DNA from: Massilia frigida
Lineage (GTDB): Bacteria; Pseudomonadota; Gammaproteobacteria; Burkholderiales; Burkholderiaceae_D
NCBI RefSeq assembly: GCF_011682175.1
Contig: NZ_WHJG01000039.1
Span: forward strand, 1-64,000
Length of the DNA stretch: 64,000 nucleotides
Reading direction: 5' to 3'
Positions within the stretch are counted from its first letter, which is position 1. Every line of letters begins with the position of its first letter. The notes under the pieces are model-generated. The model saw only the letters and a program-made list of their open reading frames with translations. It made no database searches and had not been told where the DNA came from. Positions 92-26,648 of the stretch are shown in pieces. A program made the position numbers and the translations under genes.

Positions 92-1205
92 GCGGTCGTC
101 AAGTTTCACCGAAAACGTCATAGAGCCTCCGCGTCGGCATGAGCGGTCAGGGCAACGATGGCCTGCAGCTTATCGCAGACGATTTTGGCGGCGACATCCT
201 GGGCCACAGCTTGCTGGCTCAAGCCGGTGACGTGCTCCAGATTGAGCCGGTGCTTGAGCCGTTTGAACGCTTCCTCGATGCCCCAGCGCTTATGGTAGAG
301 CTCGGCAAAGCATTCTGCCGGGTAAATTTCTTCGTCGAAGAGATTGGTCATCAGAACGCGTTGCTCGCCGCTGGGAGAGGCGTTGCGGACCAATCGGACA
401 CGCTGCGGTTTGCGCGGACATTCGTAGTCGAGCGCGTCCGGCTTGTTCGGCGCAGGCAGCGTGACGACCTGCTCAAGCGCCTTCGAGTGCATGAACGTGC
501 GCACGCAGGTGAAGCCGCTTGCATTGTCGACGCGCATGCAGAACTTGATGGCGCGGTGGTTCAGCACTGCGACCAGCCAGCGGCAAGGGTAGCCGCGATC
601 GAGCAGTAACAGGTCGTCCGGGGAAAGTAGGTCCAGGTGTTCGAACAGGAACTGGCGTTCGCCGCATTGATGGACGTTGTGCAGGGAGGCGGCGAGCATC
701 AGGTCAGGCCCCGGCAAGAACAGGCCGAACAGGATTTGATCGGCCAGAGCGGCCCGCTTCACATGGCTGGCCCGCAGCCCGAAACGCACCGTCGAGGCGT
801 CGGCGGCGACCAGGCGCAACCCGCGCCAGCGCGGCACAAAACCGTCCGTTTCGGCGCGCTTGATGAGCCAGTCGTTGAGACCCGGAATGGCAGTCAGGGA
901 TAGTTTGGCGCGCGCCTGGGCGAAAGCCTGCTCGGACACCTCGTGAACGAGCTGGGCTTGTTGGCGCAGATGGGCGAAGAAGGTGTCCAATTCGGCTTGG
1001 ATACTCATCCGCATGCCCGTCAGCATGATGGCAACCAGCGTCGCCAAGGGAAGCTTGCGACAGCGCGAGAACGCCATTGGATGGTCGGCGTGGCGCGCTT
1101 CCTGCAAAAATTCTGTTGAGCATAGTCGGGCAGCGAAATCTTGAAACAGCATGGACAGAACGGACATGGCAGACAGTGGAAATAAAAATTCACACTGACG
1201 ACCGC
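92..1205. mobile_element. IS4-family insertion sequence
   Basis: A single transposase gene is bracketed by a perfect 10-bp inverted repeat, GCGGTCGTCA at 92-101 and its complement TGACGACCGC at 1196-1205. AT-rich sequence resembling CAATTA lies just outside each copy, so the true ends may extend 10-20 bases further out. I could not see a convincing target-site duplication. To the left, a reading frame open from base 1 to a stop at 121-123 could be the tail of an interrupted gene, but it is too short to identify. Confidence 0.7.
118..1167 (-). CDS. IS4-family transposase
   Basis: A 349-residue DDE transposase that cuts and pastes its own element. The catalytic residues are visible: the first Asp is D123 (ADAST), the second is D190 (LLLDRGYP), and the third acidic residue is E298. 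E298 sits in a perfect IS4 signature Y-(2)-R-(3)-E-(6)-K at Y291, R294, E298 and K305. The length fits intact IS4 transposases and no frameshift is seen, so the enzyme may still be active. It is the only gene inside the inverted repeats. Confidence 0.92.
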   Translation of the reverse strand: MSVLSMLFQDFAARLCSTEFLQEARHADHPMAFSRCRKLPLATLVAIMLTGMRMSIQAELDTFFAHLRQQAQLVHEVSEQAFAQARAKLSLTAIPGLNDWLIKRAETDGFVPRWRGLRLVAADASTVRFGLRASHVKRAALADQILFGLFLPGPDLMLAASLHNVHQCGERQFLFEHLDLLSPDDLLLLDRGYPCRWLVAVLNHRAIKFCMRVDNASGFTCVRTFMHSKALEQVVTLPAPNKPDALDYECPRKPQRVRLVRNASPSGEQRVLMTNLFDEEIYPAECFAELYHKRWGIEEAFKRLKHRLNLEHVTGLSQQAVAQDVAAKIVCDKLQAIVALTAHADAEAL

Positions 1206-8499: not shown

Positions 8500-8560
8500 C
8501 GCACCTCGGCGTGACTGGTTCGGCTTGCCCTTGCGCTTGCCCGGCTTTACTTCTGTGTCG

Positions 8561-8597: not shown

Positions 8598-8715
8598 ACG
8601 GGCGAGCCTGGTTACATCCAGACGGTGCGAGCAAGACGCTTACGCGTTTCGCGAGGGCGGTCCCACCCGGAAGCAGGACGAATGCGAGCGCGTCGCGTGC
8701 TGTGAAAAACCTTGC

Positions 8716-9219: not shown

Positions 9220-9664
9220 GATGTTGCCCCTGAAAAAGTGCTGCTTCGAATACATCTTTACTACTGCTACGCTGCAAAGCGCCCAATCGATCGATCAGTT
9301 ACCGCGCCTGGCTGCATGTTCGAGAGTAGGCTGCTGATACCTTGAAAATTTGTTCGATATCAGGGCTCGCGTTAAAGAGGTAAATTTTTCGTCTCAATTC
9401 AGCTATCGCGAAGGAACCCGCACACTGTTTTCCCGGTAGAACGTGAACTGCAGCGGTTCGGAAGGGGGATCCTTCGGAAGTAGCTCAGCGGCTTCTTTCA
9501 CGAGCACATGCTTGTCGTGCGCTTCGACCTGCCGGCACAGGGCGATGCCGTAGCGCGGGCGCGCCGAGGCCGGCACAAGGCGAGGCGCCAAGGCGAGGCA
9601 CAACATGCATATCTTTTTATCTTGACATCAAAATTCAATCGGCATATATTTCACATTCCTGATT

Positions 9665-9678
9665 TGGAAGCGTTTCCA
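9665..9678. promoter_or_regulatory. LacI/GalR-family operator candidate
   Basis: TGGAAGCGTTTCCA is a near-perfect palindrome with the central CG and TGGAA/TTCCA arms typical of LacI/GalR-family operators (often written TGGAAACGNTTCCA). It lies about 330 bases before the GH16 glucanase start. No lacI-type gene is in the window, so the regulator would act in trans. Confidence 0.5.
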
Positions 9679-9936
9679 TAATCGGGGGAACGGTAAGTTT
9701 CCACTCTCCAATACATCCAAAAAAACTGCGTGCGCAGGCATGCGGCCTGGCCGCCAAGGAGACCGATGTCCGGCGTGAAACCGTTCACGCCACAGGCGCC
9801 CCGGCGCCTCGATTGTCCCGCCCGATGCAGCCCGGGCCGCGCACTGCGCAGAGGGCCAGCTGCATGTTCGACCTGAATCTTGCCCGACCGCGCATGCAGC
9901 TCGCGTAGCCTGGCACAGCGCGATGCCGACGCTGAC

Positions 9937-9959
9937 GGAAGCGCTACCAAATCGCTTCC
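9937..9959. promoter_or_regulatory. Inverted repeat near the glucanase start
   Basis: GGAAGCG at 9937-9943 and CGCTTCC at 9953-9959 form a 7-bp inverted repeat with 9-base spacing, 45 bases before the GTG start of the glucanase gene. The half-sites resemble those of the operator at 9665-9678, so the same regulator could bind both. Confidence 0.35.
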
Positions 9960-10003
9960 GGCGCGGTGCCGCATTTTATGAAGAGTAGTTACGAGGAGAC
10001 ATT

Positions 10004-11878
<1,875 letters not shown>

Positions 11879-11932: not shown

Positions 11933-12877
11933 CTACCTGGCCTTGCCGGACGGCGCCGGCTGGGCTACCGCCAGCCATTGCGTCGTTGGCTGAATCGCTG
12001 GCGCTTTGCGTTCCGCACCGAAGGCCGCTTCGGCCTTGGCCGGTGTCATCCCCGCAATCAGGGGAAGCCACTTGCCATCTTCGGATACCAGCATGGGGAT
12101 GACTGGTTTGATCGATTTCACAGCCAGCATGATTCCATATAGCAAGTTAAAATCCTGCTCCGCGCGTTGAGGCGTCAGTGCGCATGCGCGCGCCGGCGGC
12201 ACGGACCGTGTGGCCCAGTAGGATTGCCATGCCTTTGATGGATCGCCGTCGCATTTTATCCGGATCACTTTTTCGAGGAAGGGCAAGCCGCCATCCGCAC
12301 TGTCCCGCAATGTGCCGGGCACGAGGTAGAAGGTCGTGTTCATGACGGCTGCTGCCTTCTGCAAGCCTTTTTCAAACTGGTTGCGGGCTGGGCAATCGAG
12401 AGCGGAGAACATGAGAATCTTGCGTCCTCCGCCATTGCCATAAGTAATCTTGATCAGCTTGTCGTAGTCGATATTGGCCATGACTTCGGCGCGTAACTCG
12501 TCGAGCTGGCTGGGCGTCATCAGGCGCGGTTTGCCCGGTTGTAGCCCGACTGTGTGATAGCCTGGTTTGCTTTTGCCGGTGATGGTTCCCGCCTCGTTGG
12601 TGACGGTGAGCACTGTCCCGTCGGCAGCCTAGATGCCGTACATGCCCTTCACCAGCGCCGGTAATACGGTGATACCCGGGGCATTGAGGTCCGGCGCTGT
12701 CATCCCCGCCCGGCGGAGGTTTGCCTGGAGGTTGGCTTTGGCGCTGTTGCCATCGGCGAATGCGCTGGTCGATGCCATTACCGCAGCCAGTCCCAGCAAA
12801 GCGGCAATGGATGGGCGGGTGGTGCCACCGGGCACCTTGAACGAGGCAATTGCCGCGCGATGCATATGTGATTTCAC
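11933..12877 (-). pseudogene. DsbC-like protein gene broken by a nonsense codon
   Basis: A 945-base frame encoding a paralogue of the DsbC-like protein at 12982-13908, but interrupted by one in-frame TAG at 12629-12631 where the sister gene has TAC (MYGI-stop-AADG here, MYGIYTADG there). The remainder is open to 11933. Start GTG 12875-12877 follows AGAGG. The active-site CXXC is also lost: CPARN here against CPACN in the sister. A nonsense codon plus a lost catalytic cysteine points to decay after duplication. The downstream 226-codon part could be re-initiated but would lack a signal peptide. Confidence 0.85.
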
Positions 12878-12981
12878 TTGATTGCCTCTTTTAATTGAAC
12901 GTACAAAATAGCGATACGGGAAAATCATTGCGCAACCGCGCCAGGGGCGGGCGGCCGCAGGTAGCGAACGGCTTGCCCCGC

Positions 12982-13908
12982 TTACCTGGCTTTGCCGCCC
13001 GGCGCTGGCTGGGCCGGCTTGCTAGCCTGGGCTGCGGCCAGCCATTGCGTCGTCGGTTGAAGTGCGGATGTCTTGCGCTCCGGACCGAACGCCGCAGCCG
13101 CTTTGGCCGGTGTCAGCCCCGCAAACAGGGGAAGCCCCGTCCCATCCTCGGATACCAGCATGGGAATAGCCGGTTTGATGGCTTTCACAGCTTGCATAAT
13201 GCGGAACAGCAAGTAAAAGTCATATTCAGCACTCGCTGCGGTGATCGCGCATGCGCGCGCTGGCGGGACGGACCGGTTCGCCCAGTAGGTCTGCCATGCC
13301 TGGCCGGGATTGTCGTCGCATCGTATCCGGGCAACCTTGTCCAGGAAAGGCAAGCCGCCCGCCGAACTGTCCCGCAATGAGCCAGTCGCCAGGTAGAAGG
13401 TCGTGTTCATGAGCGGTGCCGCCTTGCGCAGATCCTTTTCCAGCTGATTGCAGGCTGGGCAATCGACAGCCGTAAACATCAGGATCTTGCGGCCTCCGCC
13501 ATTTCCATACGAGACCTTGATCAGCTTGTCGTACGCGAGATTGGCCATGATCTCGTTACGCAACTCGGCCAGCTGCTCAGGGGTCATCGGGCGCGGTTTT
13601 CCGGGTTGCAGCCCGACGGTACTGAGGCCGGTTCCTTTGCCGGTGATGGTTCCCGCCTCATTCGTGAGGCTGACGATTCTCCCGTCGGCGGTGTAGATCC
13701 CATACATGCCCTTCACCATGGCCGGCACGGTGACCACGCCCGGCGCGTCCAGGTCCGGCAAGGTCACCCCGGCGCGGCGGATATTCGCCTGCAAATTTGC
13801 CTTGGCGCTGCTGCTGTCGGCAAGTGCGCTGCCCGTTCCCATGACACAGGCCAGGCCCAGCAATGTGGCAATGACGGGGAAGCCCGCACGATGTGCGTTG
13901 ATTTTCAA
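12982..13908 (-). CDS. DsbC-like periplasmic thiol:disulfide protein
   Basis: A 308-residue exported thioredoxin-fold protein with DsbC/DsbG architecture: signal peptide to about residue 30 (GTGSALA), an N-terminal region with VKGMYGIYTADGRI as in DsbC dimerisation domains, and a thioredoxin-like domain with redox motif C150-P-A-C153 (MFTAVDCPACNQLEK). I place the start at TTG 13906-13908 because GAAGG lies 7 bases upstream and no ATG precedes the signal peptide; its broken sister uses GTG at the same place. It probably isomerises or reduces disulfides in the periplasm. The C-terminal tail (about 270-308) is Ala/Pro/Gln-rich. Confidence 0.8.
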   Translation of the reverse strand: MKINAHRAGFPVIATLLGLACVMGTGSALADSSSAKANLQANIRRAGVTLPDLDAPGVVTVPAMVKGMYGIYTADGRIVSLTNEAGTITGKGTGLSTVGLQPGKPRPMTPEQLAELRNEIMANLAYDKLIKVSYGNGGGRKILMFTAVDCPACNQLEKDLRKAAPLMNTTFYLATGSLRDSSAGGLPFLDKVARIRCDDNPGQAWQTYWANRSVPPARACAITAASAEYDFYLLFRIMQAVKAIKPAIPMLVSEDGTGLPLFAGLTPAKAAAAFGPERKTSALQPTTQWLAAAQASKPAQPAPGGKAR

Positions 13909-14032
13909 TGGGAAGCCTTCATAAAAATAGACATGCGAGGTGGCGTGCCGAAATAACGCCGTGCTCAAGCAGGGCGCTGCCGGCAGGCCCGGTGCGGCGG
14001 CGGGAATCGCCCGGACCGGACGATCCGTTGCT

Positions 14033-14572
14033 TCACTCGGCGGCGTCGAGCCAGAAAATGGCGTAGGCCTTGGCCGGCGTTTTCTCGGTCGGCTTTTCAA
14101 TCTGGACCTGGGCGCAGTCTTCCGCGACCAGGCTGCGCCAGTTGGGAATGCCGGCGTTGGCAAACACCGTGGTGGCCTTCGATGCGAGACTGATATCGAG
14201 CGCCAGGCGGGCATTGCGCGCCCCCGTTTTGGCGTAATTCACGCCGCGCAATTCAAAACCGAAGCTGGTCAGCCACGGCTCCCACAGGCCCGATTCCACG
14301 CCCTGCACGATGCGGCCGAACATATCCTTGAGCGGCAAGCCTTTCTTGATCACGCCGCGCAGCGGTTCGAGCGACGGCGCCGTGCGCGCATCGGTCGACA
14401 GCTTGCCCGCGCCGCGTTCCCCGATCGCCTTGATTTCCTTGGAAAAGGCCGCATCGCGTTCGGTGTAATCGCGCATCCGGGTGAAAAATTCGGTACTGAT
14501 GAACGGATTTTCAGGCCGGCCGACTGCTTCCTCGGGTACGCGTTTTACCGAAGGCTGTTTTTTCGTGGTCAT
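14033..14572 (-). CDS. Hypothetical protein
   Basis: I do not recognise this 179-residue protein. It has a charged N-terminus (MTTKKQPSVKRVPEE), no signal peptide or membrane span, and mixed alpha/beta composition ending in AIFWLDAAE. The upstream ribosome-binding site is weak. It lies 52 bases after the gene at 14625-15335 on the same strand, so the two may form an operon. Together they could be a cytoplasmic pair of unknown role. Confidence 0.6.
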   Translation of the reverse strand: MTTKKQPSVKRVPEEAVGRPENPFISTEFFTRMRDYTERDAAFSKEIKAIGERGAGKLSTDARTAPSLEPLRGVIKKGLPLKDMFGRIVQGVESGLWEPWLTSFGFELRGVNYAKTGARNARLALDISLASKATTVFANAGIPNWRSLVAEDCAQVQIEKPTEKTPAKAYAIFWLDAAE

Positions 14573-14624
14573 AGATTCAGTGCTTAATGGTCGTAGGTGA
14601 TAGAGCCGTAGTTTAACCTATCGC

Positions 14625-15335
14625 TCACTTGCCAAGCAGCGCAAGCGATGCATTCCATTGCCCCAGCCACGGATGCAGGAAATCGTGGCCCTGGAATGCC
14701 CGTTTCAGCTGCGATACCGGCACCCGGTACAGATCGTTCATTCCCAGCGCCAGGGTCACCGGATTCCACATCGCGTGCTTTTTCGATTTCCTGGCGCTGC
14801 CTTTGATGCGCGCGCCTTCATCGCCGAAGATGCCGCCGGCCTCATCGAGCGCCTTGCCGATATCGATCCGCAGCATGCCCGCAAACGCGGCGATCGCTTC
14901 ATCCTTGCTGATGCCAACACGCGCTTCCTGGGCCGTTTCAAGCACCAACGGCTTCGGTTCCGCATCGCGTTTCAGTTTGGCGGCCAGCTTTTCCAGCTCC
15001 TTCTTGAGAAAGCGCAGTTCGTGCAGCTCGCGCCGGAAACCCGGCGCCGGCAGCTGCACCACGATCTTGTACGCGTCCTTGGTAATCGTGATCAGCACAT
15101 CGTCGCTGCCGGCCACCAGGCGCGCGGTATCGCCTTCAAAGAAGATCGGCGCCGCATAACCGCCATTGGCGTCGCCAAACAGGTCGGGATACGTGGCGTC
15201 GTAATCGAGCCACACATAAGGCGTGAGCGCATGTTCTATCAGGCGCGCCAGGGTCCAGGGCGAACCGGTTTGCTGTTCCATCCACCCGCAGGCTTGTTCT
15301 GTTGTCGCCCGAAACGGCAGTTCGATGATCGTCAT
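14625..15335 (-). CDS. Hypothetical protein with central charged coiled-coil segment
   Basis: A 236-residue protein that I do not recognise. I chose ATG 15335 (MTIIELPFRA), with a purine-rich AGTGGA upstream; longer upstream starts lack support. Around residues 101-125 a Lys/Glu/Leu-rich stretch (LHELRFLKKELEKLAAKLK) suggests a short coiled coil. The C-terminal half is basic then hydrophobic. No export signal. First gene of a probable two-gene unit with the gene at 14033-14572. Confidence 0.6.
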   Translation of the reverse strand: MTIIELPFRATTEQACGWMEQQTGSPWTLARLIEHALTPYVWLDYDATYPDLFGDANGGYAAPIFFEGDTARLVAGSDDVLITITKDAYKIVVQLPAPGFRRELHELRFLKKELEKLAAKLKRDAEPKPLVLETAQEARVGISKDEAIAAFAGMLRIDIGKALDEAGGIFGDEGARIKGSARKSKKHAMWNPVTLALGMNDLYRVPVSQLKRAFQGHDFLHPWLGQWNASLALLGK

Positions 15336-16802: not shown

Positions 16803-18320
16803 TCAAGCGGTCTGCATTTCCGCCGCGCCGTGCGTCGATTTCAACGCCGAGCGCACGATCCAGCATTCCGGATACGGCTCGCTGGCAAAGCGCGTATGGC
16901 GGGGAAACTGGGCCAGCCGGTCCAGCGCGGCGCCGGGACTGAGCGCGGTTTCCTTGCCGGTCGCCGGGTCCAGGTGCCAGAAACCGCCATTCTGGTGATA
17001 TATAACCGGCATCACCGACGCCCGCGGCGCCGCACCGAACGGCGCCAGCGGAAAACCTGGATGCCGCCCCGGCTCCAGGAAATAGAAGCACTCCGCATGC
17101 GCACCCTGGTCGATGCGGTGCACGATCACACCGTGCGGCATGATCGCCGTCACATTCAGCTCCACGATCCCCTTGATGCTGGCCGACAGCTCGATGCGCA
17201 TGCCCAGCCGCAGCGGTACCGGCTTGTTCTTGCCCGGCCACACGCCGTCGAGCAAGATGCCGTAGCGCGACACATCTTCGATTTCAAAGCCGTTCAAGCC
17301 CCGGCGAATCACCGCGTGGCGCCCCGACAGACGGCGCGTGAGGCCGTCACGGTCCTGGCCATCGTCGCCAAAGTGGGTCAGCAGCACGTCCGCCTCGGGG
17401 TCGTACAGTTCAAACCGGCCCAGCACGCACTCCGCCATGGCGAACAGGCGCACCTGGCGCTGCGATCCGGCTTCGGGCGCGGCGTTGACCAGGCAGGCGC
17501 AGGCGGTCGGGTGCGGATGCGGATCGGAATCCTCGGGCACGTCGATTTCGATCAGGTCTTCGTCCCAGGCGATGGTCGAAAAGCCCAGGTCGACCTTGCC
17601 GGGCTTGGCGTCGAGATTCAGGTTGGCGATTGAGGCGTTGCGTGCGTGCACGTCGATATCGAGGCGTCCGCCGCCAGCCTGGGCGTTGACCCGGGCGATG
17701 GAGGCGTCATCGGCCATCACGCGTACGTTTTTGTGGGTCGACAGGAAGGTTTGGTGGATTTCGGTGAGGGTTGCATCGGGGCGCGGTACGAGGATGACCA
17801 GCGTGCACACCCACTTATGGCGGATGCGGTTGTCCTGCAGGTTGAACAGCTCGACCTCGATGCGGTACTGCCCGTGTTCCTTGTCGCGCGACGAAAATTC
17901 GATGAACAGGGGCCGCCAGTCGCCGCGCAAGGTGCGCACGAAGGAGTGGCGCGCGTTGCCCTGCGGGATCAGCGCCGACTGCAATTGCATGGTCACCAGC
18001 GGCGCGCTATCGGGCGGCATGCCGCGCAGCTCGACCTTGATGGACTGGCGTCCGCCCGCCGCGCGCGGATCGAAACCGGAGATGTGCAGGTGCGGACGCA
18101 GCTGCGTCACGGTCGCTTCCTCAGGGTAGGTGAACGGCGCCGCCCCGGGCTTGGCCGTCGGACGCGAGCTGCGCAGGGCGCTGATCAGTTCATAGCTGGA
18201 ATTCGCGGGCCCCGCCGGGGCCGGTATGGCCGACTGGGCATGGCCGTTCGAACAGGCGTTTTCCCCTGGCATGACCCAGAAGGTGCAATGCGGATGCAGG
18301 GGATTGTTGCATTTTTTCAT
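16803..18320 (-). CDS. FHA-domain protein with N-terminal zinc-ribbon-like motif
   Basis: A 505-residue cytoplasmic protein. The first 30 residues hold C-x8-C-x10-C plus His (CNNPLHPHC, ACSNGH), resembling a small metal-binding ribbon. The middle is beta-rich. A forkhead-associated domain lies at about 295-400, with GRFELYD, SGRHAVI and SRYGILLDG, the elements that read phosphothreonine. The C-terminal 90 residues are unassigned. It follows a PP2C phosphatase on the same strand, and a Ser/Thr kinase operon lies 5 kb upstream, so it is a plausible phospho-reader of that pathway (inference from context). Confidence 0.85.
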   Translation of the reverse strand: MKKCNNPLHPHCTFWVMPGENACSNGHAQSAIPAPAGPANSSYELISALRSSRPTAKPGAAPFTYPEEATVTQLRPHLHISGFDPRAAGGRQSIKVELRGMPPDSAPLVTMQLQSALIPQGNARHSFVRTLRGDWRPLFIEFSSRDKEHGQYRIEVELFNLQDNRIRHKWVCTLVILVPRPDATLTEIHQTFLSTHKNVRVMADDASIARVNAQAGGGRLDIDVHARNASIANLNLDAKPGKVDLGFSTIAWDEDLIEIDVPEDSDPHPHPTACACLVNAAPEAGSQRQVRLFAMAECVLGRFELYDPEADVLLTHFGDDGQDRDGLTRRLSGRHAVIRRGLNGFEIEDVSRYGILLDGVWPGKNKPVPLRLGMRIELSASIKGIVELNVTAIMPHGVIVHRIDQGAHAECFYFLEPGRHPGFPLAPFGAAPRASVMPVIYHQNGGFWHLDPATGKETALSPGAALDRLAQFPRHTRFASEPYPECWIVRSALKSTHGAAEMQTA

Positions 18321-18437
18321 AGCAATACTCGCCGTTCATGAGTGTTAAAGCTTACGCGCTTTTAACGATGCGTGGCACGCCAAACGCCCATGCCATACAA
18401 CAATATTTGTGTTTTGAAACAGAGTGTTGTCCGGGCA

Positions 18438-19421
18438 TCAAGGCTCGCCTCGGTAAAGTTGTTGGGTCGATATCGGCGCCGCCGTCTCGTCGTTGTACAA
18501 GGGCCGCAGCACGATGGCCGTCAGGTTATCGATGTGCAACTCGGGTGGTGGATTGCTGCTCATTTCCGCAAACAGGGCCGCGCTCATGCCATGTGCGCTG
18601 TGGTGCCCGTTGAACAGCCGCGGCCAGCGGGCCAGCCACGCGCGCGGGTCGGCGCACGCCCAGAAACCGTCGCTGGCCAGCAAGTACACCGCGCGCGGAT
18701 CGAGTTCCAGTGCGCGCCGGTCCGGCAAGTGGTACAGATACGAGGGCAGGTTGCGCGGCGACAGTTCATACAAGTCATCGGCCAGCTCGGCCGGATTGGC
18801 GAATGCATTGCCTAAAATGAAAGCTTGCGAAATCTGGGAGCGGTGTTCGCCATGAACCTGCTGCCACCATTCGTGCTCGCCCAGCAAGCCGGCCATCGCA
18901 AACGCGGTCGCGGGAACATGGTCGACCGTCATCGGCGTGACCTGCGCATCGATCATTTCATACAGGCGCGAATCGCCCACGTGGTACAGCAGCGCCGGCT
19001 TGCCGGGGCGTAGTTCCAGCATGGTGAGGGTGGTGCCGGGCCGCTTGCCGGTGGTCGGATCGCAGCCGAAATGGTGCTGCAATTGCCCGTGCAGCAAGTC
19101 GAGCCGGGCCGACAGCTCGCCCAGCGTACGGCACGCGGGAATCTCCAGCAAGCCGGCCACGACCGCCTCGGCCGCCTCGCGTCCGCGCCCATGGCCGCCC
19201 ATGCCGTCGAGCACTGCCACGCGCATGTGGCCGGCGGGCCAGTGGGCCACCTGCTGGCGCTGCCCGGCTTGCTCGCGCAGGAACACGGCGCTGCCGGTGC
19301 TGTCGATCACCAGGTAATTATCCTGGTTCTCCAGGTGCGGCGGCGCGTTGGCGCCGGCACTGGAGTGCACCGACACGTCGAGATAGGGGCCAAAATCCAG
19401 GCTGGGGGCGGCTGTTGTCAT
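18438..19421 (-). CDS. PP2C-family Ser/Thr protein phosphatase
   Basis: A 327-residue PP2C (PPM) phosphatase that would remove phosphate from Ser/Thr using two metal ions. Motifs in order: ENQDNYLVID (about 31-40), VLDGMGGHGRG (about 70-80, metal-binding Asp), GTTLTML, HVGDSRLY, TVDH, LLASDGFW and IDNLTAIVL near the end. I use ATG 19421; a TTG at 19445 is possible, but its Shine-Dalgarno-like sequence is too close. The neighbouring FHA protein and the kinase at 25644-26648 make it the likely antagonist of that kinase. Confidence 0.92.
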   Translation of the reverse strand: MTTAAPSLDFGPYLDVSVHSSAGANAPPHLENQDNYLVIDSTGSAVFLREQAGQRQQVAHWPAGHMRVAVLDGMGGHGRGREAAEAVVAGLLEIPACRTLGELSARLDLLHGQLQHHFGCDPTTGKRPGTTLTMLELRPGKPALLYHVGDSRLYEMIDAQVTPMTVDHVPATAFAMAGLLGEHEWWQQVHGEHRSQISQAFILGNAFANPAELADDLYELSPRNLPSYLYHLPDRRALELDPRAVYLLASDGFWACADPRAWLARWPRLFNGHHSAHGMSAALFAEMSSNPPPELHIDNLTAIVLRPLYNDETAAPISTQQLYRGEP

Positions 19422-19487
19422 CGGGCTGGGCGCAGTGTTTGGCAATCCTGACAGCTTATCGGTAAACTTGCCGCACCAAAACGACGA

Positions 19488-20741
19488 TCAGATGGCGGTT
19501 TCCCGCTTTCCTGTCGCGAGCGCGATGGCGTTGACGATTACGCAAGCGCCGGCAATGGCCAGCGCGGCCTGCACGCCGACCCGGTCCGCAAGCGCGCCCC
19601 AGACCATGCTGCCGGCGGTGTAGCCGCCCGCCATCACGAACAGGTAGATCGACAGGGTGCGCGCGCGTATGCTGGCCGGAAAAGCCAGCTGCGCCGCCGC
19701 GTTCAGGGTCGAGACCGTCGCCGACCATGCCATGCCGGCCGCGACAATGAGCGGCACCAGCAAGGCCAGCGAGCGGATGAATGGCAGCAGGCACAGCATG
19801 GCGCCGTAGACCAGCAGCGAGCCGCTCAGCAAGCGCGTCTTGCCGACCCGCGTGCGCAGCGACGGCAGCAGGAAGGCGCCGCACACGGCCCCCGCGCCCA
19901 GGCTGCCCATCAGGGTGCCGAACACGCCCGAATCCATGTGCAGCACCTGGCGCACGAACACCGGCAGCAGGGCGGCGAACGCAATCGTCGCGAAAAACAC
20001 CGTGCAGACATTGAGCAGGATGCGCCGGTAGCGCCCGCAGCCAAGGGCGGTGCTCAGGCCGAGTTTGAGGCTGCTTGCAAAATCGACCTTGGCGCGCGGC
20101 TCGGGCACGCCGTCGCGCCACCACGACCAGTACACCGCCAGCAATCCGATAAACGACAGCGCATTGACCAGGAACAGCGCGCCGGCGCCGACCCAGTTGA
20201 ACAGCAGCCCGCCCAGCGCCGGTCCGAGGATGGCCGCCACGTTGTAGCTGAGATTGTTGAGGGTGGCGGCCGCTTCGACCTCGTCCGGTTCGACCAGGCC
20301 CGACATCGACGCTTGCCAGGCCGGCCACATGAAAGCCGCGCCCGAGCCCATGCAGAACGTCAACGCCAGCACCGGCGCGGCCGAGACCCGGCCGCTGATG
20401 GCCAGCGCCGCCATGGCGCAGGCGCACAGGGCCATGAACAGATTACAGAAGAACAAAAACTTGGGGCGGTCCACCGCATCGGCAATCACGCCGGCGAACA
20501 GCGCAAACAGAAAGATGGGAATGTAGCTGGCGGTCTGCACCAGGCTCGTCGTCGACGCCGAGCTTGCCACACAGGCAATCAGCCAGGCCGAGGCGAAGGT
20601 CTGGGTCCAGGTACCGAGGTTCGATATCAGGTTGGCGCTCCACAGATGGCGGAAGCGCGCGTGGCGCAGCGGCTTGGACAAGGGCACCTTGGCGCACAGC
20701 GAGGGCGCCGGAAGCGGAACGGACAGGCTAGGTTTAGACAT
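19488..20741 (-). CDS. MFS exporter, EntS/MFS_3-like
   Basis: A 417-residue major facilitator protein with about 12 transmembrane helices. Features include an N-terminal RHARFRHLWSANLISNLGTWTQ, the loop-2/3 motif GVIADAVDRPK and a matching GALADRVGVQA late in the sequence. The layout is that of the MFS_3 (enterobactin-exporter-like) branch, which exports siderophores or drugs; the substrate here is unknown. It lies between the PP2C gene and a divergent acetyltransferase gene. Nothing in the sequence ties it to the phospho-signalling genes apart from position. Confidence 0.88.
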   Translation of the reverse strand: MSKPSLSVPLPAPSLCAKVPLSKPLRHARFRHLWSANLISNLGTWTQTFASAWLIACVASSASTTSLVQTASYIPIFLFALFAGVIADAVDRPKFLFFCNLFMALCACAMAALAISGRVSAAPVLALTFCMGSGAAFMWPAWQASMSGLVEPDEVEAAATLNNLSYNVAAILGPALGGLLFNWVGAGALFLVNALSFIGLLAVYWSWWRDGVPEPRAKVDFASSLKLGLSTALGCGRYRRILLNVCTVFFATIAFAALLPVFVRQVLHMDSGVFGTLMGSLGAGAVCGAFLLPSLRTRVGKTRLLSGSLLVYGAMLCLLPFIRSLALLVPLIVAAGMAWSATVSTLNAAAQLAFPASIRARTLSIYLFVMAGGYTAGSMVWGALADRVGVQAALAIAGACVIVNAIALATGKRETAI

Positions 20742-20856
20742 GATCGTTCCAGTCTACGGTGCGCTCGTGCCGGGCGTCAACATCCGGGCGAAAATGGCCT
20801 GCACAATCGCGGCCAAACGTGCACAATGGTGCTCTGCCAACCTGACCAAACCGACA

Positions 20857-21312
20857 ATGCATATCCGTCCTATCGAGCGCAGCGACATCCCGGCCGTCGT
20901 CGCGATGTTTCGCGCGCTGGCCACCGAGTTCATCGTGCACGAATCGCCGCCGGAAGTGGTCGCCACTTTCCTGCGCGAGAATGACGAGCAGGGTTTCCAG
21001 GGCTTTCTGGCCAAGGGCTATGTGTACCATGTGGCCGAGATCGACGGCGAACCGGCCGGCTTCATCGCCGTACGCGAGTGCAAGCATCTGTATCACATGT
21101 TCGTGGCCAAGAAGTTCCACGGACGCGGCGTCGCGCGCGCCATGTGGAACGTGGCCCGGGGCGCGGCGCTTGCGGGCGGCGGCGACGGCAGCTTTACCGT
21201 CAATTCCTCCAATTACGCGCTGCCGGTCTACCATTCCATGGGGTTCGAGCGCACCGCGCCCATGCAGAGCGTCAACGGCCTGTATTTCAACCCGATGAAG
21301 CTGTCCGCCTGA
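20857..21312 (+). CDS. GNAT-family N-acetyltransferase
   Basis: A 151-residue acetyltransferase with the N-terminal HIRPIERSDIPAVVAMF and the acetyl-CoA-binding signature VAKKFHGRGVARAMW (about residues 83-97). The C-terminal PVYHSMGFERTAP is also typical of the family. ATG 20857 begins this conserved segment; upstream in-frame starts add only unrelated residues. It is the only plus-strand gene inserted within the minus-strand kinase/phosphatase region. Substrate unknown. Confidence 0.87.
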   Translation: MHIRPIERSDIPAVVAMFRALATEFIVHESPPEVVATFLRENDEQGFQGFLAKGYVYHVAEIDGEPAGFIAVRECKHLYHMFVAKKFHGRGVARAMWNVARGAALAGGGDGSFTVNSSNYALPVYHSMGFERTAPMQSVNGLYFNPMKLSA

Positions 21313-21318
21313 GCACCT

Positions 21319-21762
21319 TCAGCGGCGCGCTTCCTCGGCGCGCCGCAGCCACAGGCTGCTCGACCAGCCGCGCACGTCCTTGCCCTCGATGCGCGCGCTG
21401 ACCTGCCACCAGTCGCCGTCGCGCAGGCCGGTCGTGGTCACCACGGTTCCCGCCGGCGCCACGGCGATGCGCCGCGCGCCGATGCCTTTGTTGGCGCGCA
21501 GGTTCAAATCGTCGAACACGGTGTAGCTGACGCCCGCGTACGAAGGCGGCGCTGCTGCCAGCGCCGGCTGCATTGGTGGCTGCGGCGGCAGCAGCGATAG
21601 CAGCAGGGCGCCCAGCGCCCAGGTGCCGGCCACCAGGATGCTTGCCGCGCGCAGGTTCGGCCGGCGCCACCAGCGCGCCGGCGTCAGCCACGCCGCCAGC
21701 ACCAGGGTGGCGACCAGGCCCGCCGCATAGGCGCCCATGGCCAGGTAAGGTGCGCTTGGCAT
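21319..21762 (-). CDS. Membrane-anchored SH3-like domain protein
   Basis: A 147-residue protein with two hydrophobic spans (about 8-26 and 39-61) followed by a bacterial SH3-like domain (about 76-140: YTVFDDLNLRANKGIGARRIAVAPAGTVVTT ... GDWWQVSA ... GWSSSLWLR, reading around short gaps). Such domains often bind peptidoglycan peptides or proteins. ATG 21762 follows GGAGAGCACC, 10 bases after the preceding gene, making it the last member of the kinase operon. A periplasmic domain near a SEDS protein suits cell-wall sensing, which is inference. Confidence 0.75.
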   Translation of the reverse strand: MPSAPYLAMGAYAAGLVATLVLAAWLTPARWWRRPNLRAASILVAGTWALGALLLSLLPPQPPMQPALAAAPPSYAGVSYTVFDDLNLRANKGIGARRIAVAPAGTVVTTTGLRDGDWWQVSARIEGKDVRGWSSSLWLRRAEEARR

Positions 21763-21772
21763 GGTGCTCTCC

Positions 21773-23290
21773 TTAGGCGTCGAAACGCAGCACGTAATGG
21801 CCCGCCACCAGGTGATGACCGGATGGCAGCATGTAAGGCTTTTCGGCGCTCGCCTCGCCGATGCTGGCCACGAACGCCAGCTTGTCGTCGAGGTGGTACA
21901 GCGCCTGGGTTGCGCTCAGGCGCCCGATCCGGTAGCCGCCTGGCCCCGCCTCGAAGCTGAACGCGCTGCGCGACAGGCCGATGCGGTCGGCGCTGGCGCT
22001 GTCCATCCCGCCGGCCAGGCGCAGGAAGCGCGCCGAATCGAGCACGCGCAGCGCCGCCAGCATCGGCGCATTGCGCCCGAACGCAAAGCGCGCGCCGCTG
22101 GCCACGGGAGCCGAAACCGGATGCGGCAGGCGTAGCAGGGCGCGGTAGCGCTCCGCCATGGCGGGAGCGACCGCCAGCAGTTCCACCGCGCGCGCGTCGA
22201 CCGGCGTGAAGATGGCGGGCGCCTTGATCGGCTGGCGTCCGGCGCCGGTCACCGCGAACAGCTGGTCGGCCGCGTCGACGGCGAAGCCGAGTGCCACCTC
22301 CTCGCCATCGGCGGCCAGCAGCAGCGAGGGTGCAAGGCCGATCTCCATCGACACGGCGCCGGTCTCGTGGTAGCGGCTCAGGCAAGGCAGCGCGAGGCCG
22401 GCCAGGCTGACGCGCTGCTGCGCGAGCGGGGCGTAGGTGGCGTCGCTCCCGACTGGCGCGGCGGCGGGACGGTGGCTGAACGGCACGGCGGTGTCGCCGC
22501 TGTCGGGAGCGAGCGGCGCGCGTGCCTTCCAGACCGCCGCCGGCTTGGCGCAGGGCGCGGGGATGGGGGCCGCACCGGCGCGCCGCACGCGCATCAGCAG
22601 GCGCGTGCCGGCGTCGCCTTTGGCGCTCACGATGTAATGGCCGCTCAGTGGATCGAGCGCGCAGTCGAATGCGCCCTTGGGCCGCACCTGCACCTCGATG
22701 GGGGCGTCGGGACCATCGTTAATGAGCAAAATGGCACCTTCCGTGGCGAACGGCCAGGCCGGCACCGCGTGGCTGGCCAGGTCGGCATCGTGGCCGATCA
22801 GGGCCAGGCGCTGCTGCGGGTAGATCGGGCACACCGCCTGCCAGATGGCGCTGTCGCGCGAGCTTTCCACTGTATACAAGGGCTGCTCGCCGGCGGCCGG
22901 CAGGTACACCGCGTGGCCGAACTTGACCTCGACCTGGCCCGGTTCCAGCGCATCGGTGCCGATCACGTCGTAGCGCACATCGTCGCTGCCGAGCAGGTCG
23001 CCGAAGTCTTTCTGGTGCAGGGCCGTGAGCGACTGCGCCAGGTCGCGCACGCGCGCGCCGCGTGTGAGGTGGCGGTCGTCGTCGACCTCATCCTGCGCCA
23101 GCATCAGGGTGATATGGGAAAAACAGCGCGTGGGCGCGCGCCCGCGGTGTTCGCGCGGGGAGCGTTCGAGCAGGTCGCGCAGCAGCGGGCGGCGCGAGAA
23201 CAGCGCCAGGCCGGGCGCCTGCCACAGGGTTTCGGCGTTGAACACATCGTTCACCTTGCCCAGGACTTCATGTTGGACGTAGACCGGCAT
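21773..23290 (-). CDS. Unrecognised protein with C-terminal FHA-like domain
   Basis: A 505-residue protein with no signal peptide or membrane span. The first 380 residues match nothing I know. The last 110 have the layout of a forkhead-associated domain: FAFGRNAPMLAALRVLD, then IGLSRSAFSFEAG, YRIGRLSATQALYHLDD, and LPSGHHLVAGHYVLRFD, corresponding to the GR, SR, Ser-x-Asn-like and final beta-strand elements. The usual Asn after Ser is replaced, so phosphopeptide binding is uncertain. The start at 23290 overlaps the end of the SEDS gene by 40 bases, implying translational coupling. A scaffold for the kinase pathway is likely by context. Confidence 0.7.
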   Translation of the reverse strand: MPVYVQHEVLGKVNDVFNAETLWQAPGLALFSRRPLLRDLLERSPREHRGRAPTRCFSHITLMLAQDEVDDDRHLTRGARVRDLAQSLTALHQKDFGDLLGSDDVRYDVIGTDALEPGQVEVKFGHAVYLPAAGEQPLYTVESSRDSAIWQAVCPIYPQQRLALIGHDADLASHAVPAWPFATEGAILLINDGPDAPIEVQVRPKGAFDCALDPLSGHYIVSAKGDAGTRLLMRVRRAGAAPIPAPCAKPAAVWKARAPLAPDSGDTAVPFSHRPAAAPVGSDATYAPLAQQRVSLAGLALPCLSRYHETGAVSMEIGLAPSLLLAADGEEVALGFAVDAADQLFAVTGAGRQPIKAPAIFTPVDARAVELLAVAPAMAERYRALLRLPHPVSAPVASGARFAFGRNAPMLAALRVLDSARFLRLAGGMDSASADRIGLSRSAFSFEAGPGGYRIGRLSATQALYHLDDKLAFVASIGEASAEKPYMLPSGHHLVAGHYVLRFDA

Positions 23291-25647
23291 GCTTGATTCT
23301 CCTCGAATGATTGCGCACTGATTGCACTGAACGCTAGCAGGGGGCAGATGAAAAACAGCAGATGGCTGCCGCCGGCCGACAGAAAACTCATGGGCTGGCC
23401 CATGATCGGGAAGATCGCCAGGTTGGTCCCCCACGACAGCAGGAAGTGGCCCAGCACGAATGCGGCCCCGCCGCACAGGGCGAAGCAGCGGAAGCGCCAC
23501 AGCCAGGCCTGGCGGAAGTCGCGCGTGCGCTCGCTGGCGCCGAAGGCGCGCGCCGCCGTCTGCAGCAGGCCGACCAGGAACAGCGCCTGCAAGGCCCACA
23601 GCGCCAGTGCGCCCAGCAGGCCGTGGCGGTTCAGGAAGAAGGAGGGCGCAAAATCATCCTGCACCGCCGGAATATGCAGCGCGCTGCCCCCAAGCTGGCC
23701 CATGGCCCCCAATCCCAGCACATTGTCGGCGCCCCACCAGGCGCCTTCGGCGATGGCGCGCGCCGCCAGCAGCAACTGCTGGCCGGTATGCGGATGCTGG
23801 GCCGGGTCGAGCCATACCAGAAAGCGGTCGGCGTAAAAGCCCCATTGCGCCACTTCCGCCACGCCGGCGCTGCGCAGCCAGGCGATGCCGCCGGCGGCCA
23901 GGCACGCCAGGCCTAACAAGACGGCGGTCGCGGCGTGGGTGCGGGTGGCCAGCGCCCAGGCCAGCGCCATCGCCATGCACCACACCAGCAGCAGGATCAA
24001 GGGCGAATAATCGTCGACCTGGACCAGCGCCAGCCCGAGCAGCGCGGCGAACAGCAGGACCGGGGCCGCCAGCCGCAGCCAGCGCCGCGCGGGACTCGAT
24101 TGTTGCGGCATGTCCGCATGCCAGCCAAGGCCGATGGCGAGGCAGTGGGCGGTGAGCGCGGTCAATGCCAGCTTGGCAAATTCGACCGGCTGCAAGTCGA
24201 ACACGCCGGTTTCGTCGCCGAAGACGACCTGCATCAGCAATGCCGCCAGTGCCGCCAGCGCAAACAGGGCGAGCACCCATTCGAGGCTGGCCTGCGGCAT
24301 CGCCGGGGCGCCGGAACGCACCCGCAGGCGCAGGTGCGCGCCGATGCCAAGGCCGATCGCCAGCAGCGCCACCGATTTCTGGAAGTGGCGCAGCGCGGCC
24401 GATTCGGCGCCGCCGAAGCCCAGTTCCAGCTGCGCCAGCAAGCCCACCGCCAGCAGCAGCAGGCCCGCCGCCGTGGCCAAGGTCAGGCGCGCCGGCACCA
24501 GCAGGCAGCCCCACAGCGCGCTCCACGCCAGCAGCATCGACCAGCCCACGCCCGGTGCGCTGCCCGAACGCTGGAACAGCAGCGCGGCCACGCCGGCAAT
24601 GGCCAGCAGCACGCTGGCGCCGGCCGCCGCGCGCAGCGCGTGCGCCGTATTGCGTGTAAATGGCCAGGCGCCGCGCTGCCAGTGCACGGCCGCCGCGGCG
24701 GCCAGCAAGATGCACAGGCCCAGCGCAAGCGACCATGGCCGCCCGCTGGGCAGCGTCCACAGGCCGCGCTTTTTCCACTGCCACGCCACCTGGGCCGGCA
24801 GCAGCGCTTGCGCTTGCGCGTACAGCGCCACGTGGCGTTGCGGCAGCAGGTACAGCACGCCGTCGTCGATGTGCACGCCGAACCGGGTGCGCCCGGCCAC
24901 CAGCGTCTGCACGCCGGCCAGTGCTTCGGCGCTGCGCGCCAGGTCGACCGAACCGGCGGCGGACGAGATCATGAGCGGTGCGCGTTCGGCCGCGCCGGAA
25001 AGCAGCAGGCCGTCGCGGGCGCGCGCGATGGTGGCGCTGGCGCCGTCCACATAGGCGATCCCGAGCCGGTTGCCGCAATACAGATTGCCGCCGAAAGTGA
25101 GCGGGCGCGCCACCGTCAGCGCGTGCGGCATGGCGCGGTTCCACAGCGCGACGGCGCGCGCGGCGAGGCCGGCGTCCGGGCACGCTGGCTGGGCGCTGTC
25201 GTTGCGGTACAGGGTGGCGCCGTCGTAGCGCCATGCGGCGCCGGGGCCGCCGAACGCGACTTGCCTCGCACTGGCAGCGGCGACATCGAAGCGCGCGGCG
25301 CCGATGCGCAGCGACTGGCCGGCGCGCAGGGCGCTCGATCCCATGCGGCGCTCGAGGCCATCGCGCTGGAGCAGCACCTGCTTGCCGGCGCTGACATTGC
25401 TGGCCCACCAGCTGCCGTCAGGGGCGCGGCGCAGTGCCAGATGGGCGCTGTCGGCCTGGGGCGCGGCCAGTTCGGCGTTGCCGACGGTGAGCGATTCGCC
25501 CGGCCGCAGCGCCACCGAGATGCGCTCGGGCGACCATGCCGGCGGCGCGCGCCACAGGCACACCAGTTGCAGCAGGCACAGGACCGCGAGCAGGGCGGCG
25601 GTCAGGATGAAGCCGGGCGAACGATCCGCAAGCCGAAAGCGCATCAT
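23251..25647 (-). CDS. SEDS (RodA/FtsW-type) protein with N-terminal FHA-like domain
   Basis: A 798-residue membrane protein. After one N-terminal span (about 12-30), residues 45-130 look like a forkhead-associated fold: LRPGESLTVGNAEL, a WWASNVSAGKQVLL strand pair, then LRAGQSLRIGAARFDV. A long soluble part follows, then about 10-12 spans from residue 350 carrying SEDS hallmarks: LQPVEFAKLALTALTAH, a QDDFAPSFFLNRHG loop and FPIMGQPMSFLSAGGSHLLF. SEDS proteins polymerise peptidoglycan glycan strands, usually with a class B PBP, and none is encoded nearby. Start 25647 overlaps the kinase stop (ATGA). Confidence 0.85.
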   Translation of the reverse strand: MMRFRLADRSPGFILTAALLAVLCLLQLVCLWRAPPAWSPERISVALRPGESLTVGNAELAAPQADSAHLALRRAPDGSWWASNVSAGKQVLLQRDGLERRMGSSALRAGQSLRIGAARFDVAAASARQVAFGGPGAAWRYDGATLYRNDSAQPACPDAGLAARAVALWNRAMPHALTVARPLTFGGNLYCGNRLGIAYVDGASATIARARDGLLLSGAAERAPLMISSAAGSVDLARSAEALAGVQTLVAGRTRFGVHIDDGVLYLLPQRHVALYAQAQALLPAQVAWQWKKRGLWTLPSGRPWSLALGLCILLAAAAAVHWQRGAWPFTRNTAHALRAAAGASVLLAIAGVAALLFQRSGSAPGVGWSMLLAWSALWGCLLVPARLTLATAAGLLLLAVGLLAQLELGFGGAESAALRHFQKSVALLAIGLGIGAHLRLRVRSGAPAMPQASLEWVLALFALAALAALLMQVVFGDETGVFDLQPVEFAKLALTALTAHCLAIGLGWHADMPQQSSPARRWLRLAAPVLLFAALLGLALVQVDDYSPLILLLVWCMAMALAWALATRTHAATAVLLGLACLAAGGIAWLRSAGVAEVAQWGFYADRFLVWLDPAQHPHTGQQLLLAARAIAEGAWWGADNVLGLGAMGQLGGSALHIPAVQDDFAPSFFLNRHGLLGALALWALQALFLVGLLQTAARAFGASERTRDFRQAWLWRFRCFALCGGAAFVLGHFLLSWGTNLAIFPIMGQPMSFLSAGGSHLLFFICPLLAFSAISAQSFEENQACRSTSNMKSWAR

Positions 25648-26648
25648 GGCTGGATGCTCGCGGGCAGGGCGGCGCGGATGGCGCCGATCATGCGGCTGAT
25701 TTGCATGGCGTGGCGCGGGCGCCGCGCGCGCTCGGCGCCGAGCAGGGCGCGCAGCAGGAGCAGTGCCTCGTCCGCGCCGCCGGTGCTGGTTTCGGTCGCC
25801 GGGCTCCACGTGCAGGCGTCAGCCCGGCGTCCGAAGGCGCGCGCGAAATGGGCGGCTTCATCGTCGTGCAGGGTGGGAGGAGGGCGGTTTCCGTGGCGCG
25901 CCAGCAGCATGGCGGCGCCCTCGGTGCGGTGTTCGCGGTAAGCCTGGCCGCAATCGCTGCAAAAGCGCAGCGGCAGGCCGCCCGTGACCAGGTAGTAAAA
26001 CAGGGCGCCGAGGGCGAAGTAATCGGTGCGCGTGTCGGTATGGTAGCCGCCGGCGGAGTCCGGGAAGAACTGTTCCGGCGCCTGCCAGCTGGCCGTGCCG
26101 GCATAGGCGCTGGCCCGGCCGTCGGCCAGCAGGCGGCTGGTGCCGAAATCGGCAAGCTTGACGCTGCCGTGACGGCGTGAAAGCAGTACATTGGCCGGCT
26201 TCAAATCGAGATACGACCAGCCGTACTGGTGAACCTTGGCCAGCGCCTGGTTGATTTGCGCTAGCCAGTCGAGCAACTGGCCGGCGGCGAGCGGGCGGCC
26301 GGCATCGCGTTCAATGGCGATATGGCGGCCAAGGTCGGTGTCGAGCAGTTCGAGTGCCATGACGGGCAAGCCATCGTGTTCGCCGCTGTCGAGCAGGCGC
26401 ACGACGTGGCGCTCGTCCCACGGGGCGAGCGAGCGCAGGAAGGCGATTTCGTTGCGCGCGCTGGTGATCCAGCGCTCCTGCTGCAGGGGATGGGCGCGCG
26501 CCATCTGGTCGCGGTTGACCAGCTTGAGGGCCACCTCGCCGCGCGGCCCCAGCGCGCGCCAGACTACGCCGTAGGCGGAGCCGCCCAGCTGGCCGCACAG
26601 GCGGTACTGCCCCGCACCAAGCGCGATGATTGCGTCCGCTGTTTCCAT
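25644..26648 (-). CDS. Ser/Thr protein kinase (Hanks type)
   Basis: A 334-residue soluble kinase. Residues: glycine-rich loop LGGSAYGVVW (21-30), ATP lysine K42 (VALKLV), helix-C E67, catalytic loop YLDLKPANV with D148 and N153, DFG at 167-169 and APE at 190-192. The HRD motif is YLD here, so it is a non-RD kinase that may not need activation-loop phosphorylation. Residues 230-233 (CSDC) could bind metal. No transmembrane or PASTA domain. Start 26648 follows AGGGGGAAGC. It heads the operon and overlaps the SEDS gene by 4 bases. Confidence 0.93.
   Translation of the reverse strand: METADAIIALGAGQYRLCGQLGGSAYGVVWRALGPRGEVALKLVNRDQMARAHPLQQERWITSARNEIAFLRSLAPWDERHVVRLLDSGEHDGLPVMALELLDTDLGRHIAIERDAGRPLAAGQLLDWLAQINQALAKVHQYGWSYLDLKPANVLLSRRHGSVKLADFGTSRLLADGRASAYAGTASWQAPEQFFPDSAGGYHTDTRTDYFALGALFYYLVTGGLPLRFCSDCGQAYREHRTEGAAMLLARHGNRPPPTLHDDEAAHFARAFGRRADACTWSPATETSTGGADEALLLLRALLGAERARRPRHAMQISRMIGAIRAALPASIQP

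Follow-up and report, generated by a model that had tools for sequence, protein, structure and literature searches.

A putative third SEDS–class B PBP pair with linked Ser/Thr kinase, phosphatase and FHA genes in the Massilia group

The window, a 64,000-nucleotide stretch of Massilia frigida contig NZ_WHJG01000039.1, contains a six-gene operon (operon A) on the minus strand. In order of transcription, it encodes a kinase (KIN, 25644..26648), a SEDS protein (23251..25647), an FHA-tail protein (FHAC, 21773..23290), an SH3b membrane protein (21319..21762), a PP2C phosphatase (18438..19445), and a zinc-ribbon-like/FHA protein (ZFHA, 16803..18320). All six frames are open at these coordinates, confirming the cluster of the original prediction in position, strand, and order. 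Of the 79 loci fetched, 66 have the same gene order with no change of strand, indicating that the cluster is not due to chance and that the linkage is kept rather than scattered among relatives. The other 13 loci comprise seven truncated where the contig stops (L036, L056, L080, L097, L098, L105, and L108), four in which ZFHA lies outside the fetched flank (L062, L065, L069, and L096; so does PP2C in three of the four), L106, in which PP2C is not seen, and L110, a distant Paracoccaceae MAG without the full six-gene set.

In the window, KIN and SEDS overlap by 4 bp and SEDS and FHAC by 40 bp, as predicted; both overlaps recur in some relatives, not in all. An MFS transporter gene (19488..20741, minus strand; PF05977, 3.2e-97) and a GNAT acetyltransferase frame (20632..21312, plus strand; PF13673, 1.5e-28), whose true start probably lies inside the frame, separate SH3b from PP2C. 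They occupy this position in 21/79 and 32/79 loci, respectively, and are insertions rather than core genes, the MFS gene being confined to part of the group. In loci without them, a 4-bp overlap often joins SH3b to PP2C. Therefore, PP2C and ZFHA, correctly placed by the prediction on the same strand, are not mere neighbours but part of the unit.

KIN (334 aa) is a soluble Hanks-type Ser/Thr kinase (PF00069, 2e-29, over the cut-off). Residues K42, E67, D148, K150, and N153 and the DFG motif are kept in 73/73 aligned sequences. No transmembrane (TM) segment is predicted, and a Pfam scan gives no PASTA match, in line with the expectation that no PASTA kinase is present. The phosphatase (335 aa, with an uncertain TTG start) matches NCBIfam Stp1/IreP at 3e-10, which is under the model's own cut-off, and is below threshold in Pfam (0.004); residues D80, D259, and D306 are kept in 64/64 sequences and D158 in 63/64. 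The SH3b protein combines two TMs with a bacterial SH3 domain (PF08239, 2.4e-8, over the cut-off) that is probably periplasmic.

FHAC and ZFHA are soluble proteins of 505 aa each. The Pfam scan finds no PF00498 (FHA) match in FHAC, ZFHA, or SEDS, and no Pfam match at all in ZFHA; the four PF00498 matches of the genome all lie outside this contig. The sequences being too divergent for Pfam FHA, their assignment relies on motif and fold. ZFHA has the phosphothreonine motif GR...S(R)xH, with R302, S332, and H335 kept in 71/71 sequences, as are C4, C12, C23, and H27. The motif is partial in FHAC, in which G405-R406 and S440 are conserved (R406 in 76/76, S440 in 75/76) and the alignment shows no motif histidine. 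A remote FHAC homologue (locus L212) bears the canonical motif GRS..SRRH. With the FHAC model, Foldseek gives no match at E <= 0.001 and aligns some 115 columns with FHA domains at prob near 1.00. PCNA, first by E-value, is discounted (prob 0.06). The FHA folds are supported, not proved, and both proteins could be readers of kinase products.

The SEDS protein (798 aa) matches PF01098 at 7.7e-22 (78.2 bits against a cut-off of 26.4). Its 14 predicted TMs are laid out as TM1, an FHA-like head (about residues 38-293), three TMs, and the 10-TM SEDS core. The helices of the structure model are consistent with this core, and the top Foldseek matches are FtsW/RodA, with the O-antigen ligase WaaL also among the matches. 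Residues D665 and R608 align with the catalytic Asp D262 and the PH1 Arg R210 of E. coli RodA. Equivalents of D262/R210 are present in 35/35 aligned SEDS proteins plus L135, L136, L137, and L110, and in 73/73 sequences of a larger alignment; those of RodA Q111, E114, K117, D159, R210, D262, and S344 are kept in all 35. The retained catalytic residues support the idea of a dedicated SEDS enzyme. A WaaL-like SEDS in which His replaces the catalytic Asp, with the DPxxDP Asp as catalytic, was rejected: checked against the E. coli mrdB sequence and the residue numbering in PMC10449877, RodA D262 is the Asp of HTDF, conserved as D665. Residues H618 and H620 are invariant, as is the HPHTG stretch, unlike in RodA.

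The PL2 loop residues K97/R101/W102 (RodA numbering) are deleted in 35/35 third-SEDS sequences. PMC10449877 describes R101 and W102 as important to the activity of RodA. Their absence indicates a divergent SEDS protein, neither RodA nor FtsW, whose substrate or processivity may differ. The third SEDS forms a clade separate from RodA and FtsW with 100/100 support in a tree without actinobacterial sequences. On this tree a recent duplicate of either protein is rejected, although the placement of the clade is limited by long branches and compositional bias, both of which were flagged. The genome encodes three PF01098 proteins, RodA (contig C175), FtsW (contig C88), and the third SEDS; the genes for RodA and FtsW each share their contig with a transpeptidase gene no more than 7 kb away.

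The head of the third SEDS resembles an FHA domain weakly (CT664 FHA domain, Foldseek prob 0.72 and 0.82, E about 1). In the alignment the head lacks the FHA Arg and Ser, the phosphothreonine residues. By TM parity it is probably periplasmic, and is therefore probably unable to read kinase products. Thus, the predicted FHA-like head stands as a weak fold likeness, but is unlikely to be what reads the kinase output.

The third SEDS and a divergent class-B-like PBP have exactly matching distributions among 145 Oxalobacteraceae genomes, both being present in the same 24; because these 24 fall in four genera, the co-occurrence represents few independent events. The two genes share a contig in 18/24 genomes and in all 18 are convergent, 14.5-28.4 kb apart. 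The PBP, first recognised via remote locus L135, heads operon B, which also encodes an SPFH-like protein and a kinase-FGE protein. In Massilia frigida operon B lies outside the window, on contig C77. In genome G111, operons A and B are collinear, and the end of C77 and the window align side by side; by this comparison, the left edge of the window falls between the two operons, at a DDE transposase gene (118..1167, minus strand; PF01609, 5e-10) at the contig edge. The PBPs are about 820-1120 aa long; the Massilia frigida frame (1116 aa) has a transpeptidase domain (PF00905, 7.5e-15) and no match to the transglycosylase PF00912. Among 26 fetched PBP loci, SxxK is intact in 24/24 and SxN and KTG in 25/25 covering loci. 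The Massilia frigida PBP has no PBP_dimer match at E <= 0.5, and an N-terminal TM, found in the L135 and L137 PBPs, is not above threshold in its frame. A PBP hidden within FHAC or other operon A genes was sought, with no match. Counting both operons, the conserved unit comprises about 13 genes. Hence the absence of a PBP claimed by the original prediction is true of the window but not of the system, to which a PBP just off the window edge belongs, in a convergent operon with a second kinase, and six genes do not make up the whole system.

Outside the Massilia group the system is sporadic. FHAC is found in 5/300 Burkholderiales genomes, one of them (G660) outside Oxalobacteraceae. The third SEDS is found in 4/398 genomes of the phylum (two outside Oxalobacteraceae), in 1/43 genomes of the G660 family (it is missing from the other genome of the genus), in 1/195 of the order of G243, and in 6/385 of the class of G523, one of the six being weak (G1109). 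Outside Oxalobacteraceae but within Burkholderiales, the overlapping KIN-SEDS-FHAC arrangement is kept (G660), and the PBP adjoins KIN-SEDS-FHAC, with a PP2C. In another class of the phylum, the PBP directly adjoins SEDS in 5/5 informative loci. Of these, L212 alone combines PBP and SEDS with an FHAC homologue (that with the canonical motif) and a divergent kinase; phospho-control may therefore have been acquired later. No plasmid match was found for SEDS or PBP and no phage match for FHAC, and PADLOC gives only generic kinase matches and a marginal PP2C match (3.6e-4), arguing against a mobile element or defence island.

On balance, we favour the interpretation that the locus encodes an auxiliary third SEDS–class B PBP peptidoglycan synthase equipped with a cytoplasmic Ser/Thr phospho-switch of its own. 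Gene content, conservation, co-occurrence, active-site conservation, and SEDS fold were established here; we infer phosphorylation, complex formation, substrate, and physiological role, as follows. SEDS would polymerise lipid-linked muropeptide via RodA-type catalytic and pyrophosphate-binding residues, and the convergent PBP would cross-link the product. Cytosolic KIN and the kinase-FGE protein would phosphorylate proteins at the cytoplasmic face; FHAC and ZFHA would bind the phosphothreonines and then gate or recruit the synthase, and PP2C would reset the switch. The SH3b protein may contact the wall from the periplasmic side, the SPFH-like protein may scaffold the synthase site, and the SEDS head may make protein contacts in the periplasm, perhaps with the PBP. 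As the cell also has RodA/PBP2-like and FtsW/FtsI-like pairs, the role could be inducible wall reinforcement or repair.

The third SEDS might instead polymerise or ligate another undecaprenyl-linked glycan, such as a secondary wall or surface polymer, as its missing PL2 loop, separate clade, WaaL fold match, and non-RodA HPHTG stretch would allow. We regard this as unlikely, since the equivalents of D262/R210/E114/K117/D159 are retained and a transpeptidase with intact SxxK/SxN/KTG motifs co-occurs perfectly and adjoins SEDS in other classes, which points to peptidoglycan. Another reading makes SEDS–PBP the envelope arm of a signalling or conflict (stress/suicide) system whose kinases, FGE, and caspase-like proteins answer attack. 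Caspase-FGE and AAA proteins do lie near L135, operon B encodes kinase-FGE and SPFH-like proteins, and occurrence beyond the Massilia group is patchy. However, throughout that group the system is kept and syntenic, the PADLOC matches are kinase-generic apart from the marginal PP2C one, nuclease and toxin domains are absent among the scanned operon A and B proteins, and a text search of PMC7159879 finds neither FtsW nor a transpeptidase named, making this reading improbable.

We give still less credence to incidental linkage, in which one conserved chromosomal site happens to house both a wall enzyme pair and a distinct kinase-phosphatase-FHA pathway. It would accommodate the four of five other-class PBP–SEDS loci without FHAC, PP2C, or a related kinase in the stretch fetched, and a probably periplasmic SEDS head without phosphothreonine residues, but not readily the overlapping genes retained in another family or FHAC beside PBP–SEDS, plus a divergent kinase, at L212.

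Gram-negative wall growth is usually described with two SEDS–PBP pairs. Compared with the established pairs RodA-PBP2 of E. coli and FtsW-FtsI, as portrayed in PMC10449877 and PMC8765783, the third SEDS shares the 10-TM core fold and the catalytic-site equivalents listed above, and its transpeptidase partner likewise lacks a transglycosylase domain. Unlike those pairs, it has a separate clade, a lost PL2 loop, a head domain, a PBP of about 820-1120 aa without a PBP_dimer match in the Massilia frigida copy, and phospho-genes in its neighbourhood.

The likeness to the actinobacterial pstP-rodA-pbpA-pknA-pknB locus, with fhaA/fhaB (PMC6554272), drawn by the original prediction, holds: SEDS, class B PBP, Ser/Thr kinase(s), PP2C, and FHA proteins are genetically linked in both. 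Unlike that locus, the Massilia system is proteobacterial, is an extra beside RodA and FtsW, is split into two convergent operons, has a soluble kinase without TM or PASTA and a 14-TM SEDS whose head is probably periplasmic, and adds SH3b, SPFH-like, and kinase-FGE proteins. Knockdown of the mycobacterial pstP operon stops growth (PMC6554272), whereas the third system looks additional, so its deletion should not be lethal. The kinase-linked SEDS–PBP arrangement, otherwise known from mycobacteria and kin, is here a conserved third pair. We consider it probable that Proteobacteria hold an unrecognised third SEDS–bPBP class, neither elongasome nor divisome, marked by QDDF/MGQPM-type signatures and an FHA-like ectodomain in the periplasm, which in the Massilia-Duganella-Rugamonas group came under a kinase-phosphatase-FHA relay of the two-operon unit, converging on the actinobacterial solution. 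If true, Ser/Thr phosphorylation would have a new route to control peptidoglycan synthesis, and the pair would allow the gating of a SEDS enzyme by FHA readers to be tested in a non-actinobacterium that also has RodA and FtsW.

The threonine phosphorylation pathway of type VI secretion, PpkA-PppA-Fha, also joins a kinase, a PP2C, and an FHA reader in one locus. As predicted, no type VI secretion structural genes occur among the scanned window and operon B proteins; SEDS and PBP stand in place of secretion-system genes. The flanks hold metallophosphoesterase, M28 peptidase, porin, and pirin genes.

The six clustered genes are all open reading frames on the minus strand at the coordinates originally assigned to them: a soluble Hanks-type Ser/Thr kinase (KIN; 26648–25644), a third SEDS protein (25647–23251), an FHA-tail protein (FHAC; 23290–21773), an SH3b protein (21762–21319), a PP2C phosphatase (19445–18438), and a zinc-ribbon/FHA protein (ZFHA; 18320–16803). 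The 4-bp KIN/SEDS and 40-bp SEDS/FHAC overlaps are present as described. The assembly is a 7.79-Mb draft, in which positions 1–64000 of contig C188 form the window. Conservation of the neighbourhood was assessed in 79 loci retrieved via the SEDS protein; in 66 of them all six genes keep their order and share a strand. Thirteen loci do not show the full set: seven end at a contig edge, in four ZFHA lies past the fetched flank (together with PP2C in three), no PP2C is seen in L106, and the last, L110, belongs to a distantly related Paracoccaceae MAG. The nearest named loci are those of Massilia aquatica, M. rubra, M. mucilaginosa, and M. atriviolacea (SEDS identity 89–90%). SH3b and PP2C frequently overlap by 4 bp in loci without the MFS and GNAT genes, indicating that the six genes are one operon-like unit. 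Upstream of KIN, 62 of the 66 complete loci share reading frames (mechanical frames, both strands), indicating that the chromosomal site is largely conserved. The cluster is thus real and conserved, and it is more complete than the original prediction had it.

The original prediction found no PBP. This holds inside the window, but a PBP gene is a neighbour on another contig, C77, out of sight of that reading. In L135, a locus from another Burkholderiales family, KIN-SEDS-FHAC adjoins a divergent 1054-aa transpeptidase-domain protein, with a same-family PP2C close by. The M. frigida homologue (C77:131259–134606; E 3.2e-163, 40% identity) is a 1116-aa frame that matches PF00905, with no transglycosylase match in a Pfam scan. 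When the sets are compared, the PBP and the third SEDS occur in the identical 24 of 145 Oxalobacteraceae genomes, which belong to only four genera and so cannot be counted as 24 independent events; the congeneric G125 has neither. The two genes share a contig in 18 of the 24, always convergent and 14.5–28.4 kb apart, and are split over different contigs in six, the M. frigida draft included. In genome G111, the end of C77 and the left part of the window (from window position 2039) align next to each other on a single contig, at G111 positions 49–11876 and from 11996 onward, respectively, and from this alignment we infer that C77 and C188 adjoin in M. frigida. The first 2 kb of the window, which do not align in G111, contain a DDE transposase gene, the likely cause of the contig break.

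Six genes (B2–B7) after the PBP are conserved in six relatives and in M. frigida; the conserved unit therefore comprises ~13 genes in two convergent operons. In locus L174, no Pfam model matches B2, B4, or B5, and B3 reaches a match only below threshold. Over the cut-off, B6 matches a zinc ribbon and SPFH/Band 7, while B7 combines a Ser/Thr kinase with an FGE-sulfatase domain, SHOCT being sub-threshold. The M. frigida B7 is like that of L174, and its B6 is sub-threshold for all of these models. Elsewhere on C77 (101515–101941), two adjoining short frames match consecutive parts of a transpeptidase domain, as if a gene had been interrupted. Next to the L135 cluster, 1265–6717 encodes a caspase-FGE protein and an AAA ATPase whose C-terminal part is long.

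The third SEDS matches Pfam FTSW_RODA_SPOVE over the cut-off. Its AlphaFold2 model (36-row alignment, mean pLDDT 79.5, pTM 0.79) is most similar to P. aeruginosa FtsW (E 5.2e-7, TM-score 0.67 on the target), followed by a RodA–PBP complex and, more weakly, WaaL (9.3e-3) and T. thermophilus RodA (4.8e-2). With E. coli MrdB (NZ_CP028745.1) as reference and residue roles from PMC10449877, the equivalents of RodA Q111, E114, K117, D159, R210, D262, and S344 are kept in 35/35 third-SEDS rows. PL2 loop residues K97, R101, and W102 are deleted in all 35, and the R48 position is mostly Lys. The catalytic Asp and PH1 Arg are alignable in L135, L136, L137, and L110 too. In a 30-row tree without actinobacterial sequences, the third SEDS is a separate clade (support 100/100) from RodA and FtsW, whether these come from the same genomes or from others; the tree carries program warnings for long branches and dissimilar composition. 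At residues 618–624 (window ~23,780–23,796) lies an HPHTGQQ stretch, of which H618 and H620 are invariant in the Massilia group (73/73); L136 and L137 have DLGFQ there, and the RodA mechanism does not account for the two histidines.

In the model, a helix (11–32) precedes a head (~38–293), three more helices, and a 10-TM core. Hydropathy alone recovers 12 of the 14 modelled segments, and gives 14 in the L137 SEDS, consistent with this scheme. The catalytic loop is periplasmic in RodA and FtsW, and counting segments backwards from there would put the head on the periplasmic side; the invariant Cys156 and Cys191 (73/73) would suit such a location. The FHA likeness claimed for the head survives as a weak fold resemblance in the model search, but the phosphothreonine-binding Arg and Ser are missing from the sequence alignment. 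Taken with the predicted topology, this makes the head an unlikely reader of the cytoplasmic kinase.

The putative signalling residues are nearly invariant: KIN K42, E67, D148, K150, N153, and DFG (73/73); PP2C D80, D259, and D306 (64/64) and D158 (63/64); ZFHA R302, S332, and H335 (71/71); and FHAC Arg406 (76/76) and Ser440 (75/76), the FHA His not being kept in FHAC. Structure prediction of FHAC (pLDDT 73.7, pTM 0.46) returned the FHA domains of APLF, GarA, DgcB, and FhaA with probabilities of 0.99–1.00, but every E exceeds 0.001. Pfam FHA matches neither FHAC nor ZFHA, which counts against the assignment; in L212, a distant homologue of FHAC (E 4e-14) has a canonical GRS..SRRH motif. No TM segment was found in KIN, FHAC, ZFHA, or PP2C, which suggests that all four should be cytoplasmic.

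Genome surveys find the family only sporadically beyond the Massilia group. Five loci that extend past the SEDS gene (L136, L137, L212, L213, and L214) come from the same phylum but, by kinship, from another class, probably Alphaproteobacteria, since a named relative, L110, comes from a Paracoccaceae MAG. L110 itself, which is cut off by a contig start, and the weak match G1109 are not among the five. In all five, a PBP homologue with SxxK-, SxN-, and KTG-type motifs lies directly upstream of SEDS. L212 additionally has FHAC upstream and a divergent kinase; L136, L137, L213, and L214 show no FHAC or PP2C within the fetched stretch. The simplest history would be an old SEDS–bPBP pair later put under kinase, phosphatase, and FHA control. 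In L137, the PBP–SEDS pair is followed, at 14201–15154, by a P-loop-like protein whose match to DO-GTPase2 is weak and sub-threshold (E 0.012).

The Massilia system is most likely a predicted third SEDS–bPBP synthase with phospho-control. In its parts it closely matches the mycobacterial pstP locus, which combines PP2C, rodA, and pbpA with kinases and a pair of FHA genes (PMC6554272), and by analogy it may work similarly. However, it has no PASTA kinase, so the likeness is one of parts and not of membership. Among the matches listed from the open-access literature (PMC), none describes a proteobacterial third-SEDS system.

Two further regions of the window contain paired frames. At 11933–14214, a frame of 226 aa and a long one are similar and adjacent; one of them gives a weak thioredoxin-like match below threshold, and short genes with no Pfam match lie alongside. 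At 3760–7366, two similar 398-aa frames, of which the one scanned matches a Gram-negative porin, look like a tandem duplication, and the region cross-matches itself in G111.
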